From an uncultured Pelagibacteraceae bacterium (GTDB lineage Bacteria; Pseudomonadota; Alphaproteobacteria; Pelagibacterales; Pelagibacteraceae), in assembly GCA_902622245.1 (NCBI GenBank), contig CACNPC010000002.1, positions 1 through 64,000 of the forward strand: a DNA stretch of 64,000 nt. The letters run 5' to 3'. How positions within the stretch are numbered: the stretch's first letter is position 1; every line of letters starts with the position of its first letter. Positions 1,923-9,044 of the stretch are shown one piece after another. The notes under the pieces are model-generated. The model ran no database searches. It was given only the letters and a program-made list of their open reading frames with translations, and was not told the DNA's origin. The position numbers and the translations under genes are program-made.

Positions 1923-3935
1923 ATGCTCAAAAGTGGTATAAAAAAAAAATATCAAATTAAATTAGCGGAATTTAATAAGCATAACAAATTATACTACAAC
2001 AAAAGCAAGCCAATTATATCTGATAGTGAATTTGACGATTTAAAAAAAGAAATTATTGATTTAGAAAATAAGTATAAATTTTTAAAAAGTAAAAACTCTC
2101 CTAGTACAAGTATTGGTTATAAACCTTCTAAATCTTTTGAAAAATATAAACATAAAACGCCTATGTTATCTTTATCAAATGCTTTTGATAAAAATGACTT
2201 ATTAAATTTTGAAAAAAAAATTTATAATTACTTAAATAAGAATATTAATTTTGAATACAGTGTTGAACCTAAGATTGATGGAATATCAGCATCATTAACA
2301 TATAAAAATAATAAATTAGCCTATGGAGTTTCAAGAGGTGACGGTAATGTTGGTGAGATTATCACTGAAAATTTAAAAACTATACGAGATATTCCTTTAG
2401 AGATAAAAAATACTGATTTTCCAGATGAAATAGAAATAAGAGGAGAAGTATTTATAAAAAAAAAAGATTTTTTAAAAATCAAGGAAAACTTTGCAAATCC
2501 TAGAAATGCTGCTTCTGGAACACTAAGGCAAAAAGATCCTAATGAGACAAAAAAAATTCCTTTAAACTTTATTGCTTACACATTTGGATTTGTGAAACAA
2601 AATAACATTAAATATCAGTCTGAGTTTTTAAAAGCACTAAAATCATGGGGCTTTCAGGTTAACAAAGAAAATAAAGTTATAAAAACAATAAATGAATTGA
2701 TTGAATTTCATACTAAATTTGAAGATAAAAGATTTGATTTAGAATATGATGTAGATGGATTAGTTTATAAAGTAAATGATTTAAACTTGCAAAGTAGACT
2801 TGGTTTCACATCCAATTCTCCAAGATGGGCAATAGCACATAAATTTTCAGCGGACAGCGCTTATACAAAAATTATAAATATTGATATACAAGTTGGAAGA
2901 ACAGGCGCATTAACTCCAGTAGCTAAGGTAGAGCCAATAAATATTGGAGGTGTGATAGTTTCTAATGCCACGCTTCATAATGAAGATGAGATTGAGAGAA
3001 AAGATATTAGAGTTGGAGATGTGGTAAAAATTGAGAGAGCAGGTGATGTAATACCTCATGTTATAGAAGTCGATAAAAATCTTAGATCAAGTAAAACAAA
3101 AAAATTTTCTTTTCCTATAAAGTGCCCATCTTGTGGGTCAAATACTACTAAGGAATATAATAAAACAACAAAAAAATATGATGCAGTTAGAAGATGTACA
3201 AACGAAGGATACGAGTGTGAAAGGATAGCTGTAGAAAAAATAAAACATTTTATATCAAAAGATGCACTTAATATTGATGGTTTGGGGAAAAAGGTGGTCG
3301 AAAAGTTTTGGGATTTAAATTTAATAAAAGAACCACAAGATATATTTAGACTTAATTACAAAAAAATTGAACAATTAGAAGGATGGGGTAAATTATCTGT
3401 CAATAATTTAAAATTATCTATAGAAAAATCAAAAAAAGTTACATTACAAAGACTTATTTATTCGATAGGTATCAGACATATTGGGATTGAAAATGCAAAG
3501 CTTATTAGTGATAATGTAAAAAATATCTCTAACTTAATTGAAGTCATAAAACAAAATAACTTCGACAAATTTTTAAGTATAGATGGTATTGGTGAAACTC
3601 AAGTAAATTCTCTTAAGAGTTTTTTTTCCAATCAAAGCAATATCAATATTATAATTGATCTAAAAAAAATATTAGATATCGAAAGCCAAAGTTTAAATAA
3701 AAATGGAATATTAAGAAATAAAACTTTTATGTTTACTGGAAAATTAGAGGGAATGAGTAGAGCAGAAGCAAAATCTTTGATAGAAAAAAATGCTGGAGTA
3801 ACTTTAAGTGGGGTCAGCAAAAATCTAAATTATTTAATAATAGGGGACAAACCTACTAAAAAAAAAATAGATCAAGCTAAGAAACTTGGTATAAGAATAT
3901 TATCACAAAAAGATTTAAAAGAGTTACTTAATTAA
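1923..3935 (+). CDS. ligA: NAD-dependent DNA ligase
   Basis: LigA seals nicks in DNA during replication and repair, using NAD as adenylate donor. Visible in order: the NAD-binding N-terminal domain with DSEFDDLKKEI, the adenylated lysine in the KIDG motif near residue 118, and the OB fold. Next come the four-cysteine zinc finger (CPSCG, then RRCTNEGYEC, about residues 400-425), helix-hairpin-helix repeats, and a C-terminal BRCT domain beginning around NKTFMFTGKLEGMSRAEA. The 670-residue length is normal. The last 12 bases overlap the 3' end of the convergent pepP gene. A 62-residue minus-strand frame inside the BRCT region is a coding shadow. Confidence 0.98.
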   Translation: MLKSGIKKKYQIKLAEFNKHNKLYYNKSKPIISDSEFDDLKKEIIDLENKYKFLKSKNSPSTSIGYKPSKSFEKYKHKTPMLSLSNAFDKNDLLNFEKKIYNYLNKNINFEYSVEPKIDGISASLTYKNNKLAYGVSRGDGNVGEIITENLKTIRDIPLEIKNTDFPDEIEIRGEVFIKKKDFLKIKENFANPRNAASGTLRQKDPNETKKIPLNFIAYTFGFVKQNNIKYQSEFLKALKSWGFQVNKENKVIKTINELIEFHTKFEDKRFDLEYDVDGLVYKVNDLNLQSRLGFTSNSPRWAIAHKFSADSAYTKIINIDIQVGRTGALTPVAKVEPINIGGVIVSNATLHNEDEIERKDIRVGDVVKIERAGDVIPHVIEVDKNLRSSKTKKFSFPIKCPSCGSNTTKEYNKTTKKYDAVRRCTNEGYECERIAVEKIKHFISKDALNIDGLGKKVVEKFWDLNLIKEPQDIFRLNYKKIEQLEGWGKLSVNNLKLSIEKSKKVTLQRLIYSIGIRHIGIENAKLISDNVKNISNLIEVIKQNNFDKFLSIDGIGETQVNSLKSFFSNQSNINIIIDLKKILDIESQSLNKNGILRNKTFMFTGKLEGMSRAEAKSLIEKNAGVTLSGVSKNLNYLIIGDKPTKKKIDQAKKLGIRILSQKDLKELLN

Positions 3936-5600
3936 ACTTATTAACCATTTTTTTTCTTTATCATTTAAATATTTTGAAATTTTAGAATAAACATCTAAAT
4001 GATAATAAAATATGTATTTTTGTTCCTGTTTATTTAACATTTTAAAATTTATCATATCTATATCTATTGGGACTAATGTTAAATTTTTAAATATTAATTT
4101 TTTTTTCGACTCATCAACATAAATTAAATTTTCGATTCTTATACCGTATTTGTTATTCAAATAATATCCTGGCTCATTACTCAAAATCATACCTTTCCTT
4201 AAAGGGACTTTGTTGTATTTAGATATTGCTTGAGGACCTTCGTGAACATTTAAAAAAAAACCTACTCCATGTCCAGTCCCATGAGAATAGTCTAAACCAA
4301 CTTCATTCAAATATCTTCTTGCTAATTTATCAATTAGATAGCCATTTATTTTAAAGTTTAAGTTACAGTTTACAACTGCAATATGTCCTTTTAGAACTCT
4401 TGTGAAATTATTTTTTATTCTATTTGAAACTTCGCCTAAACATGTAGTTCTTGTAACGTCTGTTGTACCCCACTTATATTGTCCACCTGAATCAATTAAC
4501 AAAATATCTTTTTTCTTTAGTTTTCTATTCGTCATTTTATTAGATTTGTAATGTATAATAGATCCATTAGGGCCAGATCCTGCAATAGTATCAAAACTTG
4601 GATAGAGATAGTTCTTTGATTTTTTTCTAAATTTTTCCAATTTTTTTTCAATTTTGGCTTCTGTCATTTCATTTTTTTTAGTTTTAAACCAATAAAGGAA
4701 CTTTGTAACAGCTACACCATCTTCAATATGAGCCTTAATAGTATTTTTCAGCTCATTATTATTTTTTATTGATTTTAAATCGTATATAGGATCAATTTCA
4801 GAGACAATTTGAAACTTACTTTTTATTATTTGTTTTTCAAAAATTGAGCAAGTATTTTTATCTATAACAAAATTCTTTTTATTTAGATCACTTATTACTT
4901 CTAGAAAATTGTGTTCATTGCAAATTTTAATATTTTTAAAGTATTGATTTTTATTTTGTGGTAGTTTTTTTTTATCAATGAATAAGTACATCTTTCCTGA
5001 ATCTGAAACTATTAGTTTACAATTAATCAAAGGACTATTAGGAAGATCTTTACCCCTAATATTTAGAAGCCAATTAACATTTTCGCTTGCACTTACATAT
5101 AAATAATTAATTTTTTTAAGATTTAAAAATTTTTTAATTTTTTTTAATTTTTTTAAATACGTCTCACCTGTAATTGATTTATTCAAATGAAACATTTTAG
5201 TTATCTTTTTACCTTTTGTTTTAATAAAAGGATATATTATTGGTATTAGATCTACTTTTTTATCAAAGTATTTTGCCAGTGTAAGATCAGTAAATAATTT
5301 CGGGTCAAAACCAATTTTTGATTTTCGAATATTAGGTAGATCCTTAGGCCAGCTATATGGTATTTCTAAAATAGTAAATTTTTTTCCTGATTGTCTTTTT
5401 GCTTGTAATACGTATCTTCCATCAACATATAAATAATTTTTATTTTTTAGAATTAATGCAAATCCAGCAGATCCGGTAAAATCTGTTACTTTTTTTAAAT
5501 TATTTATATTAGAGTACTCAGTAAAGTATCTATCATTCTTTGGAATTATGTAGCCATCTAAATTATTATTAACAATAAATTTTTTTATTTTTTTTATCAT
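3924..5600 (-). CDS. pepP: Xaa-Pro aminopeptidase (M24 family)
   Basis: This cytosolic metallopeptidase removes N-terminal residues preceding proline. The product has two creatinase-type N-terminal domains and a C-terminal pita-bread domain. Metal ligands are recognisable in DSGGQYKWGTTDVTRT (two Asp), SHGTGHGVGFFLNVHEGP (His), LSNEPGYY (Glu) and GIRIENLIYV (Glu). I place the start at the ATG at 5600, giving 558 residues, because it overlaps the uvrD stop as ATGA, a translational-coupling arrangement. An in-frame ATG at 5627 would add nine residues (MDKISKKTK) inside uvrD. The 5' end of this gene is part of the sequence duplicated, inverted, at about 8.7 kb. Confidence 0.93.
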   Translation of the reverse strand: MIKKIKKFIVNNNLDGYIIPKNDRYFTEYSNINNLKKVTDFTGSAGFALILKNKNYLYVDGRYVLQAKRQSGKKFTILEIPYSWPKDLPNIRKSKIGFDPKLFTDLTLAKYFDKKVDLIPIIYPFIKTKGKKITKMFHLNKSITGETYLKKLKKIKKFLNLKKINYLYVSASENVNWLLNIRGKDLPNSPLINCKLIVSDSGKMYLFIDKKKLPQNKNQYFKNIKICNEHNFLEVISDLNKKNFVIDKNTCSIFEKQIIKSKFQIVSEIDPIYDLKSIKNNNELKNTIKAHIEDGVAVTKFLYWFKTKKNEMTEAKIEKKLEKFRKKSKNYLYPSFDTIAGSGPNGSIIHYKSNKMTNRKLKKKDILLIDSGGQYKWGTTDVTRTTCLGEVSNRIKNNFTRVLKGHIAVVNCNLNFKINGYLIDKLARRYLNEVGLDYSHGTGHGVGFFLNVHEGPQAISKYNKVPLRKGMILSNEPGYYLNNKYGIRIENLIYVDESKKKLIFKNLTLVPIDIDMINFKMLNKQEQKYIFYYHLDVYSKISKYLNDKEKKWLISLIK

Positions 5601-5661
5601 TTTAGTTTTTTTTGATATCTTATCCATCCAGGACTTCTTATTTCACTCTCAAAATCAATAT
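5583..5661 (-). repeat. Inverted repeat arm 1 (uvrD 3' end plus pepP start)
   Basis: Read on the minus strand, 5661 down to 5615 is identical over 47 bases to 8634-8680 on the plus strand. After one extra base here (C at 5614), the match continues through the uvrD stop and pepP ATG to about 5583, with a single mismatch. Overall about 77 of 79 columns agree. The last part is A-rich and therefore less informative than the first 47 bases. The two arms are separated by about 2.97 kb. Confidence 0.93.
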
Positions 5662-7621
5662 CTTGGTTAAATTCGAAATCATTCTCATCTTGTTCAACAA
5701 AACTATTATTTTTCTTTATAAATTCATCTGGAAGTTCGTCTACAAATCTTGAAGCAATACTATCCATCCAGTCCCCTTGATAAAATCTATTCATTGAAAA
5801 AGAAATTTTCGCTATTTTTTTTGCTCTTGTAATACCTACGTAAGCCAGTCTTCTTTCTTCCTCAAGTCCATTTTCACCCTTTTCCTCGATACTTTTTTGA
5901 TGCGGAAACAAACCTTCTTCCCAGCCTGGTAAATAAACAATGTTAAATTCTAGACCTTTCGAAGCATGTAAGGTCATTAAATTTACTTTTTCATTATCCC
6001 ATTCTTGATCTAGTGAGGTTGCTAAAGCCACATGCTCCAAAAAACTTTCTAAATTATCAAATTCTTTCATTGCATTAAGTAATTCCTTAATATTTTCTAG
6101 TTTATTTTCATTTTCTAAATCTTTTTTATTTTTTAACATTTCACTATATCCCGACTCATCTAAAACAATTTGTAATAATTTAGTATGATTTATTTTTCTC
6201 TTTAAATCGTATCTCCACTTTTCAAGTAAATTTAACAACGAGTTTAAGCCTATTTTTGTTTTTGGTTTAATTTTATTTTCTTCTATCAATTTTTTTGATG
6301 CTACTTCCAAAGAGAGTTTATTTTTTTTTGCGAATTCAGTTATATTTTTAATTGTTTGATCACCTATGGATCTCTTTGGTACATTAATTATTCTTTCAAA
6401 AGACAAGTCATCCATTGGTTGATGAATACATCTTAAGTATGCTACACAATCTTTTATTTCAGATCTTTCATAAAATTTAATTCCACCAATGATTCTGTAA
6501 GGAATGCCAACTTTTAAAAACCTTTCCTCAAATTCCCTGGTTTGAAAAATAGCTCTTACCAGAATTGCAATTTCATTTAATGAATTTTTTTTCTTATAGT
6601 CTTCAATAGTTGAGCTTATTTCTACAGCTTCATCTTTTACATTTCTAAAGCAGTCTAATGTAATAGGCTCACCATCTTCTTGAGTGGTGTATAATTTTTT
6701 TCCTACTCTATTTTGGTTATTTTCTATTAGTTTTGATGCAACATTTAAAATATTTTGTGTTGATCTGTAATTTTTCTCTAGTCTTATAATTTTTGTATCT
6801 TTGTAAGTTTTGTCAAATTCCAAAAAATTTTTAATTTCTGCGCCTCTCCAACTATAAATTGATTGATCATCATCACCAACACAACAAATATTTAAATTAG
6901 CTGAAGATAAATATTTTAACCATTCACTTTGTATATAATTAGTATCTTGATATTCATCTACTAAAATATATTTAAACTTTTTTGAGTAAATAGACGAAAT
7001 ATCTTGGTAGTTCTTAAAAATTTTGACTGTATGTAAAATTAAATCACTAAAATCAGCCGAATTTAAATCAATTAATTTTTCCTGGTAAATCTTGTAAATT
7101 TTTAAGAAGTTTTTTTCTAAAATTTCTTTTTTTTTTAATATTACATCGTCTGGATAAAAACCTTTATTTTTCCATTTATCGATAACAGCCAAAATATACT
7201 TTGGTGATATTTTTTTAATATCAATATTTTCGGATTTACAAATATTCTTAATTAACCTTGATTGGTCATCCTGGTCAATTATAGTAAAGTTTGATTTCAA
7301 TCCAACTGCCTCAGCATGCTTTCTTAAAATTTTTGCACTTATAGAGTGAAATGTACCCAACCAGGGCAATCCTGTTGCTTCTTTTCTTAGAAGTTTTGAT
7401 ACTCTTAGCTGCATTTCTTTTGCGGCTTTATTTGTGAAAGTAACTGCAAGAATTTGACTAGAAAAGGCTTTGTGACTTTTGATTATATGAGCAATTCTTG
7501 ATGTTAATACTTTTGTTTTACCTGATCCAGCTCCTGCAACGATAAGTAGTGGCCCATTTAAATGCAAAACTGCTTCCTGTTGCTTTTCATTTAAATTTAA
7601 CAAATAATCATTATTAAACAT
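5597..7621 (-). CDS. uvrD: UvrD/PcrA-type SF1A DNA helicase
   Basis: This is an ATP-dependent 3'-5' helicase of nucleotide-excision and mismatch repair. The SF1 motifs are clear: LNEKQQEAV (Q motif), AGAGSGKT (Walker A, near residue 32), DEYQDTN (motif II), GDDDQSIYSWRGA (motif III), a late VNLMTLHASKGLEF, and EERRLAYVGITRAK (motif VI). The 674 residues are in the normal range for UvrD/PcrA. The tail ends in SPGWIRYQKKLK; a W-x-R tail of this kind is usual in alphaproteobacterial UvrD, so this copy of the duplicated segment is probably the original. The stop overlaps the pepP start, suggesting a uvrD-pepP operon. The gene starts only 30 bases from the divergent AsmA-like gene. Confidence 0.96.
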   Translation of the reverse strand: MFNNDYLLNLNEKQQEAVLHLNGPLLIVAGAGSGKTKVLTSRIAHIIKSHKAFSSQILAVTFTNKAAKEMQLRVSKLLRKEATGLPWLGTFHSISAKILRKHAEAVGLKSNFTIIDQDDQSRLIKNICKSENIDIKKISPKYILAVIDKWKNKGFYPDDVILKKKEILEKNFLKIYKIYQEKLIDLNSADFSDLILHTVKIFKNYQDISSIYSKKFKYILVDEYQDTNYIQSEWLKYLSSANLNICCVGDDDQSIYSWRGAEIKNFLEFDKTYKDTKIIRLEKNYRSTQNILNVASKLIENNQNRVGKKLYTTQEDGEPITLDCFRNVKDEAVEISSTIEDYKKKNSLNEIAILVRAIFQTREFEERFLKVGIPYRIIGGIKFYERSEIKDCVAYLRCIHQPMDDLSFERIINVPKRSIGDQTIKNITEFAKKNKLSLEVASKKLIEENKIKPKTKIGLNSLLNLLEKWRYDLKRKINHTKLLQIVLDESGYSEMLKNKKDLENENKLENIKELLNAMKEFDNLESFLEHVALATSLDQEWDNEKVNLMTLHASKGLEFNIVYLPGWEEGLFPHQKSIEEKGENGLEEERRLAYVGITRAKKIAKISFSMNRFYQGDWMDSIASRFVDELPDEFIKKNNSFVEQDENDFEFNQDIDFESEIRSPGWIRYQKKLK

Positions 7622-7651
7622 TGTTTTTATTGTATAAACCTCGATATTTTA

Positions 7652-8692
7652 ATGAATAAAATAAAGCAAAACAAAATAACATTTTCTTTAATACTAATAG
7701 CTATTTTCATAACTTTTTCTTCATTAACAATTTTATCTTTACCAGTTTTATTTAATTATAAAAGCAAAGTTGCAATAATAGAAAAAAATTTTTACAAAAA
7801 TTTTAAGTTATATCTAAATTCAACAGGAAATATTTCATATAAGCCATTTCCAAAGCCACACTTGTTGGTAGAAAATGCCTCAATTAATTTGTTAAATTCA
7901 AATGATAAAGGCAGTACAAGTTTACTAAATATATCTAATTTAAAAATATTCATATCACTTAGAGATATATTTTTAAGATCTTTTGATAATTTTATCTCTT
8001 TAGAAATTTCAAATTCAAATTTAGATTTTAAAGTATCCGACTTAAAAGAAATAAGAAAACATTTATACAAAAGTATTAACAATCCAATTATATTTAATAA
8101 TTGTAAAATATTTATAAAAAATAGAAATGATGAAGTGATTATAATTTCTCCAATTAAAAAAATTTATTATAAAATAAACAATAAAAATAAAATTAAAAAT
8201 TTTACAATAGATGGAGAGATTTTTGGATTAATATTTAAATCTGAATGGAAAAGAAGTTATAACAATCCAGAAATTAGTACTCACAATATTAACTTATATA
8301 ATCCAAATATATTTATTAAAAACATATTTAAATTTAGAAATTCAAATAATTTTGTAGGTAAAACGGAAATAGAGTATATTCAAGACAAGTTGAAATATGA
8401 TATTATTTTTGAGAATAACATTATTAATATTACGTCTCCATCAATTGATAACACAAATTTTAATATAGATAGTAATATTAATCTTAACCCGTTTTATTTT
8501 AATGGGGAACTTAAAATTAAAAAGAAAAAAGTAGAAAAAATAATTGATAATATTTTATTAAATTTGTTCTTATATGATGAAAATTACTTGGGCAATTTTA
8601 ATGGTGTTTTAAAAATTAAATTTGAAGATCTAAATATTGATTTTGAGAGTGAAATAAGAAGTCCTGGATGGATAAGATATAAAAAAAACTAA
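7652..8692 (+). CDS. AsmA-like membrane-anchored protein, N-terminal part of an interrupted gene
   Basis: The 346-residue product begins with one membrane helix (about residues 10-34). It continues with the AsmA-type pattern: a short turn ISYKPFPKPHLLVENASI, then long runs of alternating beta strands. AsmA-like proteins are anchored in the inner membrane, extend into the periplasm and are linked to envelope lipid homeostasis. The ending is anomalous: the last 19 or so residues, IDFESEIRSPGWIRYKKN, copy the UvrD C-terminus and are encoded by the inverted repeat arm. The frame then stops, one base before another frame that looks like the missing AsmA C-terminal part. I read it as a broken gene; whether the truncated product is stable is unknown. 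Confidence 0.75.
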   Translation: MNKIKQNKITFSLILIAIFITFSSLTILSLPVLFNYKSKVAIIEKNFYKNFKLYLNSTGNISYKPFPKPHLLVENASINLLNSNDKGSTSLLNISNLKIFISLRDIFLRSFDNFISLEISNSNLDFKVSDLKEIRKHLYKSINNPIIFNNCKIFIKNRNDEVIIISPIKKIYYKINNKNKIKNFTIDGEIFGLIFKSEWKRSYNNPEISTHNINLYNPNIFIKNIFKFRNSNNFVGKTEIEYIQDKLKYDIIFENNIINITSPSIDNTNFNIDSNINLNPFYFNGELKIKKKKVEKIIDNILLNLFLYDENYLGNFNGVLKIKFEDLNIDFESEIRSPGWIRYKKN

Positions 8693-8711
8693 AATGAAAA
8701 AAAAAATAAAA
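8634..8711 (+). repeat. Inverted repeat arm 2 (copy of uvrD 3' end inside the AsmA-like gene)
   Basis: Positions 8634-8680 match the minus strand at 5661-5615 without a mismatch. The copy then lacks one C, which shifts the frame and gives the stop TAA at 8690-8692. It retains the ATG at 8694 that corresponds to the pepP start. The flanking codons (KIKFEDLN before, IKSQKAKFNLDKIG after) look like a continuous AsmA-type protein, so this arm appears to be the inserted or converted copy. Confidence 0.9.
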
Positions 8712-9044
8712 TCACAAAAAGCTAAATTTAATTTAGATAAAATTGGTAAAATGAGTACAGAAATTAAATATATAATTGATCAAGGTGAAATTAAATTTTT
8801 ATCAAAGAATCATTTGAATATTGAAAATCACATTGAATTTGCAAAAGTTTTTCAAGTAAGTTCAAAAAAAATAAAAAAAATTAAAAATTTGTATTTTGAT
8901 TTAGAAAAAAATATCGGCGATACCAATTTTTTAATTTCTAATGTTAAAGTCAATAATCTTGAAAAAAAAGAATTACAAAATGAAACTTTTCAAGTAAAAA
9001 ATATCCAAAATTTAAGATCACATATAAGACAAATTATTAACTAG
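8694..9044 (+). CDS. AsmA-like protein, C-terminal fragment
   Basis: This 116-residue frame has no signal peptide or membrane segment of its own. Its beta-rich, lysine/asparagine-rich sequence (KIKSQKAKFNLDKIG, then DQGEIKFLSKNHLNIENH) fits the C-terminal repeat region of an AsmA-like protein and continues the style of the frame ending at 8692. Its ATG is the transplanted counterpart of the pepP ATG (5600), one base after the upstream stop, so coupled translation is conceivable. The final four bases overlap the convergent fumC gene. I consider it the 3' part of a gene split by the duplication, not an independent protein. Confidence 0.6.
   Translation: MKKKIKSQKAKFNLDKIGKMSTEIKYIIDQGEIKFLSKNHLNIENHIEFAKVFQVSSKKIKKIKNLYFDLEKNIGDTNFLISNVKVNNLEKKELQNETFQVKNIQNLRSHIRQIIN

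Follow-up and report, generated by a model that had tools for sequence, protein, structure and literature searches.

The window, a stretch of 64,000 nucleotides from an uncultured Pelagibacteraceae bacterium, lies at the beginning of contig 2 (231,559 bp) in an assembly of 17 contigs totaling 1,337,460 bp, with a completeness of 97.66%. The part studied here contains, in order, a pepP-like aminopeptidase gene on the minus strand (3924–5600; recognized by Pfam PF00557, E = 1.3e-49, and by its sequence), uvrD, also on the minus strand (5597–7621; 674 aa, identified from relatives and from Pfam PF00580, E = 2.3e-90, and PF13361, E = 3.6e-69), and a plus-strand gene that is present in two pieces. 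The 5' part of the latter is an open reading frame of 346 aa (7652–8692), and its 3' part encodes 116 aa (8694–9044). The ATG of the pepP-like gene at 5600 overlaps the uvrD stop in the form of an ATGA at 5597–5600. The mechanically called pepP reading frame begins at 5627, within uvrD; the overlap is the likelier start because 46 of 52 relatives have ATGA or GTGA where uvrD stops (ATGA in 26 and GTGA in 20, the remaining 6 having ATAA).

The 3' end of uvrD recurs, inverted, within the split gene. Positions 8634–8680 of the plus strand are identical to positions 5661–5615 of the minus strand over 47 nt, and the local alignment extends across plus 8634–8711 and minus 5661–5583. Along it, the 47 exact nucleotides are followed by a 1-nt gap, where one uvrD C is absent from the plus arm after 8680, by 17 exact nucleotides, by a mismatch at 8698 and by 13 exact nucleotides up to 8711. 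The inverted near-identity of the uvrD 3' end and the neighboring gene, with its single gap and mismatch, was thus just as the initial annotation had described it. In the repeat search, the pair was recorded as 78 nt long with 87% identity without gaps. The arms lie 3,019 nt apart.

Inverted repeats in the genome and its relatives

All 28 inverted exact 20-mer matches in the window belong to the pair 5661–5615 and 8634–8680. Across the unmasked 1.34 Mb of the genome (5,000 masked bases were excluded from the scan), the 47-nt pair is the longest inverted exact repeat and the only one above 26 nt; the next longest are two of 26 nt, and the remainder are at most 24 nt. When the distance between arms was limited to 15 kb, the other exact inverted repeats of the same genome reached 23 nt at most, those of a single-contig congener (1.2 Mb, with 5,000 bases masked) at most 21 nt, and those of 52 related loci (589,495 nt) 18 nt, while 20 order-4 Markov versions of contig 2 gave a longest exact inverted repeat of 17–20 nt. 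As these background maxima are only 17–23 nt, the 47-nt repeat is far beyond chance, and its length against genome, relatives and Markov sequences rules out a chance origin.

Two further repeats were seen outside the window. On contig 2, a 23-nt exact inverted pair (209482–209504 and 211076–211098, 1.6 kb apart) is the only other inverted pair of at least 20 nt within 15 kb in this genome; it is partly not low-complexity and could be a similar, smaller event or a chance match. Contig 3 carries direct repeats of 48 and 41 nt close to each other (137799/139483 and 140351/144271), which by their appearance resemble the ends of tRNA genes and possibly mark a tRNA-linked variable region.

Donor, recipient and boundaries of the copy

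The 52 related loci share the local gene arrangement, with uvrD placed divergently beside the second gene in all of them. The SPGW tail of UvrD, followed by Gln, is at its native place in each of the 52, and when all six frames are considered the tail motif occurs once per locus. The neighboring gene is a single intact frame of 450–457 codons in all 40 relatives that cover the site; the other 12 loci stop short of it, with the frame open up to their ends. An NKLIK-like segment is found at the site in all 40, variable in sequence and partly absent in one locus (L070), and the native stretch at the replaced site is the conserved NKLIK-x-GEI. This segment is unrelated to the uvrD tail. Because the tail is native in every relative and the neighbor is intact wherever the site is covered, sequence comparison identifies uvrD as the donor and the neighboring gene as the recipient. 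Of the comparisons proposed in the initial annotation, that with other genomes gave the direction of copying, from uvrD to its neighbor, and alignment with intact homologues revealed an unbroken recipient in 40 of 40, with a segment replaced in the window. We rejected the recipient arm as a donor, given that each of the 52 relatives has the tail in uvrD, a single time per locus. Descent or convergence as the source of a shared protein tail was likewise rejected, as the identity extends to the DNA, over 47 nt, and none of the 40 relatives has the tail in its recipient gene.

The donor tract (5597–5661, minus strand) is the 3' end of uvrD including the stop codon that overlaps the likely pepP start as ATGA. 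The copied tract (8634–8697, plus strand) is its inverted copy and displaces about 42 native nucleotides; it starts at 8634–8637 and ends at about 8697. In the left switch zone (8632–8636, plus strand), comparison with three relatives (L039–L041) shows 1–3 nt common to donor and recipient, the shared bases being ATA if the ancestor resembled L041. In the right switch zone (8696–8711, plus strand), a shared GA is followed by one mismatch and then by the 13-nt block AAAAAAAATAAAA, which consists of A and T only and which the donor shares with the unaltered recipient genes of L040 and L041. The native recipient of these two relatives contains the A-tract GAAAAAAAAATAAAATC. The final 14 nt (8698–8711) match owing to an A-tract that the recipient itself possesses, and the sequence changes from donor-like to recipient-like at 8697/8698. 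The copied tract is therefore about 60–64 nt long and not 79: the 79 bases given in the initial annotation hold for the span of the alignment, but the copied part ends at 8697. Similarly, its term "duplication" is apt in that an inverted uvrD copy is present, but the event is a replacement since about 42 native nucleotides are gone. In comparison with L040, 42 nt (NKLIKSGEIDFKIK) were lost and 61 nt gained, namely 60 copied nucleotides and one extra A in the A-tract, for a net change of +19.

The two arms differ by one absent base over about 64, whereas dS to the nearest relatives is 0.40–0.49, and by this measure the event is young compared with the divergence of the species. It is also private. 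Among the matches listed from 399 genomes of the genus, of which 150 matched, the left junction with the copy was found in its own genome only, the others covering the uvrD tail or an intact recipient with the expected gap. A search with the junction pattern, allowing up to three mismatches, found it in 1 of 394 genomes, again its own, although a diverged copy could escape the pattern; the two genome sets overlap and contain one genome per species. The right junction was present in 3 of 253 loci, every one from the same genome, and the exact junction pattern was absent from viral contigs. No same-species genome was found.

Effects on the recipient gene and its protein

The net gain of 19 nt shifts the reading frame of the recipient. 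With the copy came the stop region of uvrD and the ATG of pepP, but because one donor C is absent, the first frame misses the copied uvrD TGA and ends instead at the TAA at 8690–8692; the final 18 residues of the 346-aa part derive from the copied tract. The copied ATG at 8694 then opens the remainder of the recipient in its native frame. A run of eight As (8681–8688, plus strand) precedes the TAA, and according to a script translation, a one-base slip at this run would merge both frames into a product of 463 aa. PMC1088944 infers slippage at nine As in many bacteria and suggests it at eight As for some IS elements. The resemblance lies in an A8 run at a frame break where a one-base slip would yield one long frame; the difference is that nine As are the usual threshold in that study, while the run here has eight.

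The recipient belongs to a conserved family of proteins of about 455 aa encoded beside uvrD (7652–9044 in the window; L039–L090), for which we found no credible Pfam or NCBIfam family. The label "AsmA-like" had been attached to it by the initial annotation and was not confirmed by Pfam, NCBIfam or fold search. Among 34 intact homologues, no AsmA model from Pfam or NCBIfam matched at E = 1 or better, though strong divergence could hide a relation. The matches obtained were incidental: PCNA_Inhib in 5 of the 34 (best E = 3.9e-4), a sliding-clamp model in one (E = 0.0012), DACNH in one (E = 0.01) and MinC_N in two (best E = 0.026). In the AsmA family, an N-terminal membrane helix leads into a long beta groove. 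The predicted model of the intact homologue L040 (mean pLDDT 74, below 50 for residues 39–113) has a helix at residues 2–50 followed mostly by strands forming a large beta sheet, and the helix is probably a membrane anchor. With this model, a fold search of the PDB returned no chain at E = 0.001 or better, a TamAB entry ranking 50th (E = 0.22), and no AsmA chain was among the best 50 rows of either structural search. The best structural alignments were large-rmsd matches to barrels, the highest VIA Z score being 10.1, for a BamA barrel (rmsd 14.3 over 197 residues). An AsmA-type architecture is a possibility.

The segment lost in the window corresponds to residues 329–342 of the L040 model and covers the predicted strand 332–342. 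That the function of the recipient is lost or strongly reduced would be the simplest expectation. The 116-aa product would probably remain in the cytoplasm because it is devoid of the N-terminal helix. At the same time, both parts look as if they are still constrained. With the frames joined and the copied tract excluded, dN/dS between the window and L039–L041 was 0.146–0.213 for the 5' part and 0.15–0.202 for the 3' part, and among the intact L039–L041 it was 0.196–0.221 and 0.171–0.326, respectively; in comparison with these relatives, neither part showed a sign of decay. We regard it as improbable that a natural, kilobase-range double switch carried the uvrD stop and pepP start into the neighboring gene, making two adjacent frames of one gene at a stroke, and that a product is still made from both frames. 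Such expression would proceed by restart at the copied ATG or by a fused 463-aa chain produced through slippage at the A8 run. If this were true, a peptide derived from uvrD would substitute for one predicted beta strand in the fused product.

Probable double template switching, in the cell or in the tube

The layout of the recipient, collinear sequence, the reverse complement of another segment and collinear sequence again, is that of the four-point model described in PMC7954356, where a short inverted copy lies between two switch points. An inverted replacement by two template switches is in our assessment highly probable. The growing strand would have left the recipient template, its 3' end pairing by means of a short homology with the opposite strand some 3 kb distant, where uvrD meets pepP. 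There, about 60 nt of the uvrD 3' end would have been copied in the inverse orientation before the strand resumed on the recipient, leaving out 42 nt; travel may have been in either direction. Both the single continuous event and the polymerase are inferred. The shared bases at the ends (GA and the 13-nt block AAAAAAAATAAAA on the right, 1–3 nt on the left) argue for such a process, as do the native tail in uvrD in all 52 relatives, the intact recipient in all 40, a tract length far above chance and a private junction. On the other side, two switches alone leave the absent C unexplained, so that a further error or a subsequent mutation must be assumed, no more than 1–3 nt are common to both partners at the left junction, their number depending on the ancestral sequence, and the 3-kb jump exceeds the fork dimension of 1.5 kb quoted for Escherichia coli in PMC3161906. 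With arms 3,019 nt apart, the patch behaves like a four-point switch, yet falls outside the short-range class that a single fork would accommodate.

Events of this type are already known, and the patch is a new instance. In E. coli, two inverted switches, each with 3–30 bp of microhomology, are described in PMC3161906, and the embedded inverted duplications of starved cells share with our case the two inverted junctions with microhomology; the segments reported there are 5.2–42.6 kb long and accompanied by amplification, whereas the patch here is about 60 nt. Short-range template-switch mutations have been reported for yeast (PMC8604942) and apes (PMC7954356). The homogenization of inverted repeats in yeast similarly renders the arms identical, but the spacers of those events are at most 70 nt, and the ape study concerns short-range events, in contrast to arms about 3 kb apart.

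Other readings of the repeat fare worse. RecA-type gene conversion between pre-existing inverted repeats would also leave a tract homogenized between the arms, and the 13-nt block was probably common to them beforehand. RecA recombination, however, usually needs homology longer than 13 nt, the recipient segment of the relatives bears no relation to the uvrD tail and, bar the AT-only block, the 52 related loci hold no exact inverted match above 18 nt; we consider conversion very unlikely. A functional element, be it a mobile element, a regulatory site or an inversion site, could account for near-perfect inverted arms on both sides of 3 kb, but one of the arms is the conserved end of the uvrD coding sequence and the gene order is not inverted relative to the relatives. 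At such length, the arms have no further copies in the genome, which excludes a repeat family or mobile element, and the functional reading as a whole is extremely improbable. An inversion of the 3-kb segment, which the initial annotation had thought the arms might support, was not seen, the order and strands of uvrD and the recipient matching those of 52 of 52 relatives. An artefact made purely by the assembler, also envisaged there, is unlikely because a misjoin at a repeat presupposes that the repeat is already present, and the junction sequences must have existed in molecules.

This leaves short-template copying and amplification chimerism, both among the origins first suggested for the repeat, with the direction of copying now added from the relatives. 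For the double switch, an origin in the tube and one in the cell are about equally likely. We give an even chance to a switch in the phi29 (MDA) reaction of a single amplified genome, in which case the allele would be absent from nature. All 52 related loci carry AG numbers, which we take to denote single-cell genomes, though 19 of the 52 titles begin with "MAG:". In none of the 34 contig ends do the terminal 200 nt contain a 21-mer found anywhere else, a pattern expected of coverage gaps and not of repeats, and the assembly resembles that of a single amplified genome, which this genome presumably is. Every one of the 40 relatives has the gene whole, and only this genome has it broken. The patch fits the rules for MDA chimeras, too: according to PMC1855051, 85% of chimeras are inverted, 83% of the inversions join sites less than 10 kb apart, 76.8% of junctions are primed on at least 2 and up to 21 complementary nucleotides, and about one junction arises per 22 kb of product. 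Our case is likewise an inverted join, over 3 kb, with short complementarity at its ends (GA and the 13-nt block; 1–3 nt). Nevertheless, the chimeras described there join two sequences with an intervening deletion, whereas here the strand returns and the flanks on either side are normal. One molecule would have to undergo two switches some 60 nt apart and then dominate the assembly, and the absent C would be an additional error for a high-fidelity polymerase. The patch is also the sole inverted exact repeat above 26 nt in its genome, and the 52 loci believed to come from single cells show none above 18 nt. Counting toward an origin in the tube, a benchmark of the marine single-cell workflow (PMC11247762) gave, per 100 kb, 1.5 misassemblies, 3.0 indels and 5.0 mismatches.

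A switch in the cell during replication or repair, by fork template switching or an MMBIR-like process, would make the patch a real and recent strain-level allele, and we rate its chance at slightly under even. It is in keeping with the microhomology-guided double inverted switches of E. coli (PMC3161906) and the short-range switch mutations of yeast (PMC8604942) and apes (PMC7954356), and the absent C could have arisen through faulty repair synthesis or by mutation afterwards. The apparent constraint on both gene parts, with dN/dS similar to that of the intact relatives, fits a recent event. Against an allele of natural origin, the event disrupts a gene under purifying selection, the junction is confined to its own genome both among the matches listed from 399 genomes and in the pattern search of 394, and 1.2 Mb of the single-contig congener contains no comparable repeat.

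If the patch is natural, one event moved a stop and a start codon into another gene of a wild bacterium, across a distance greater than a replication fork. If it was made in the tube, consensus assemblies of single cells can hold small inverted patches with two junctions, which contamination checks are presumably not designed to detect. Screening for near inverted repeats is a simple way to find such patches, because in the AT-rich sequence examined the background ends at about 18–23 nt.
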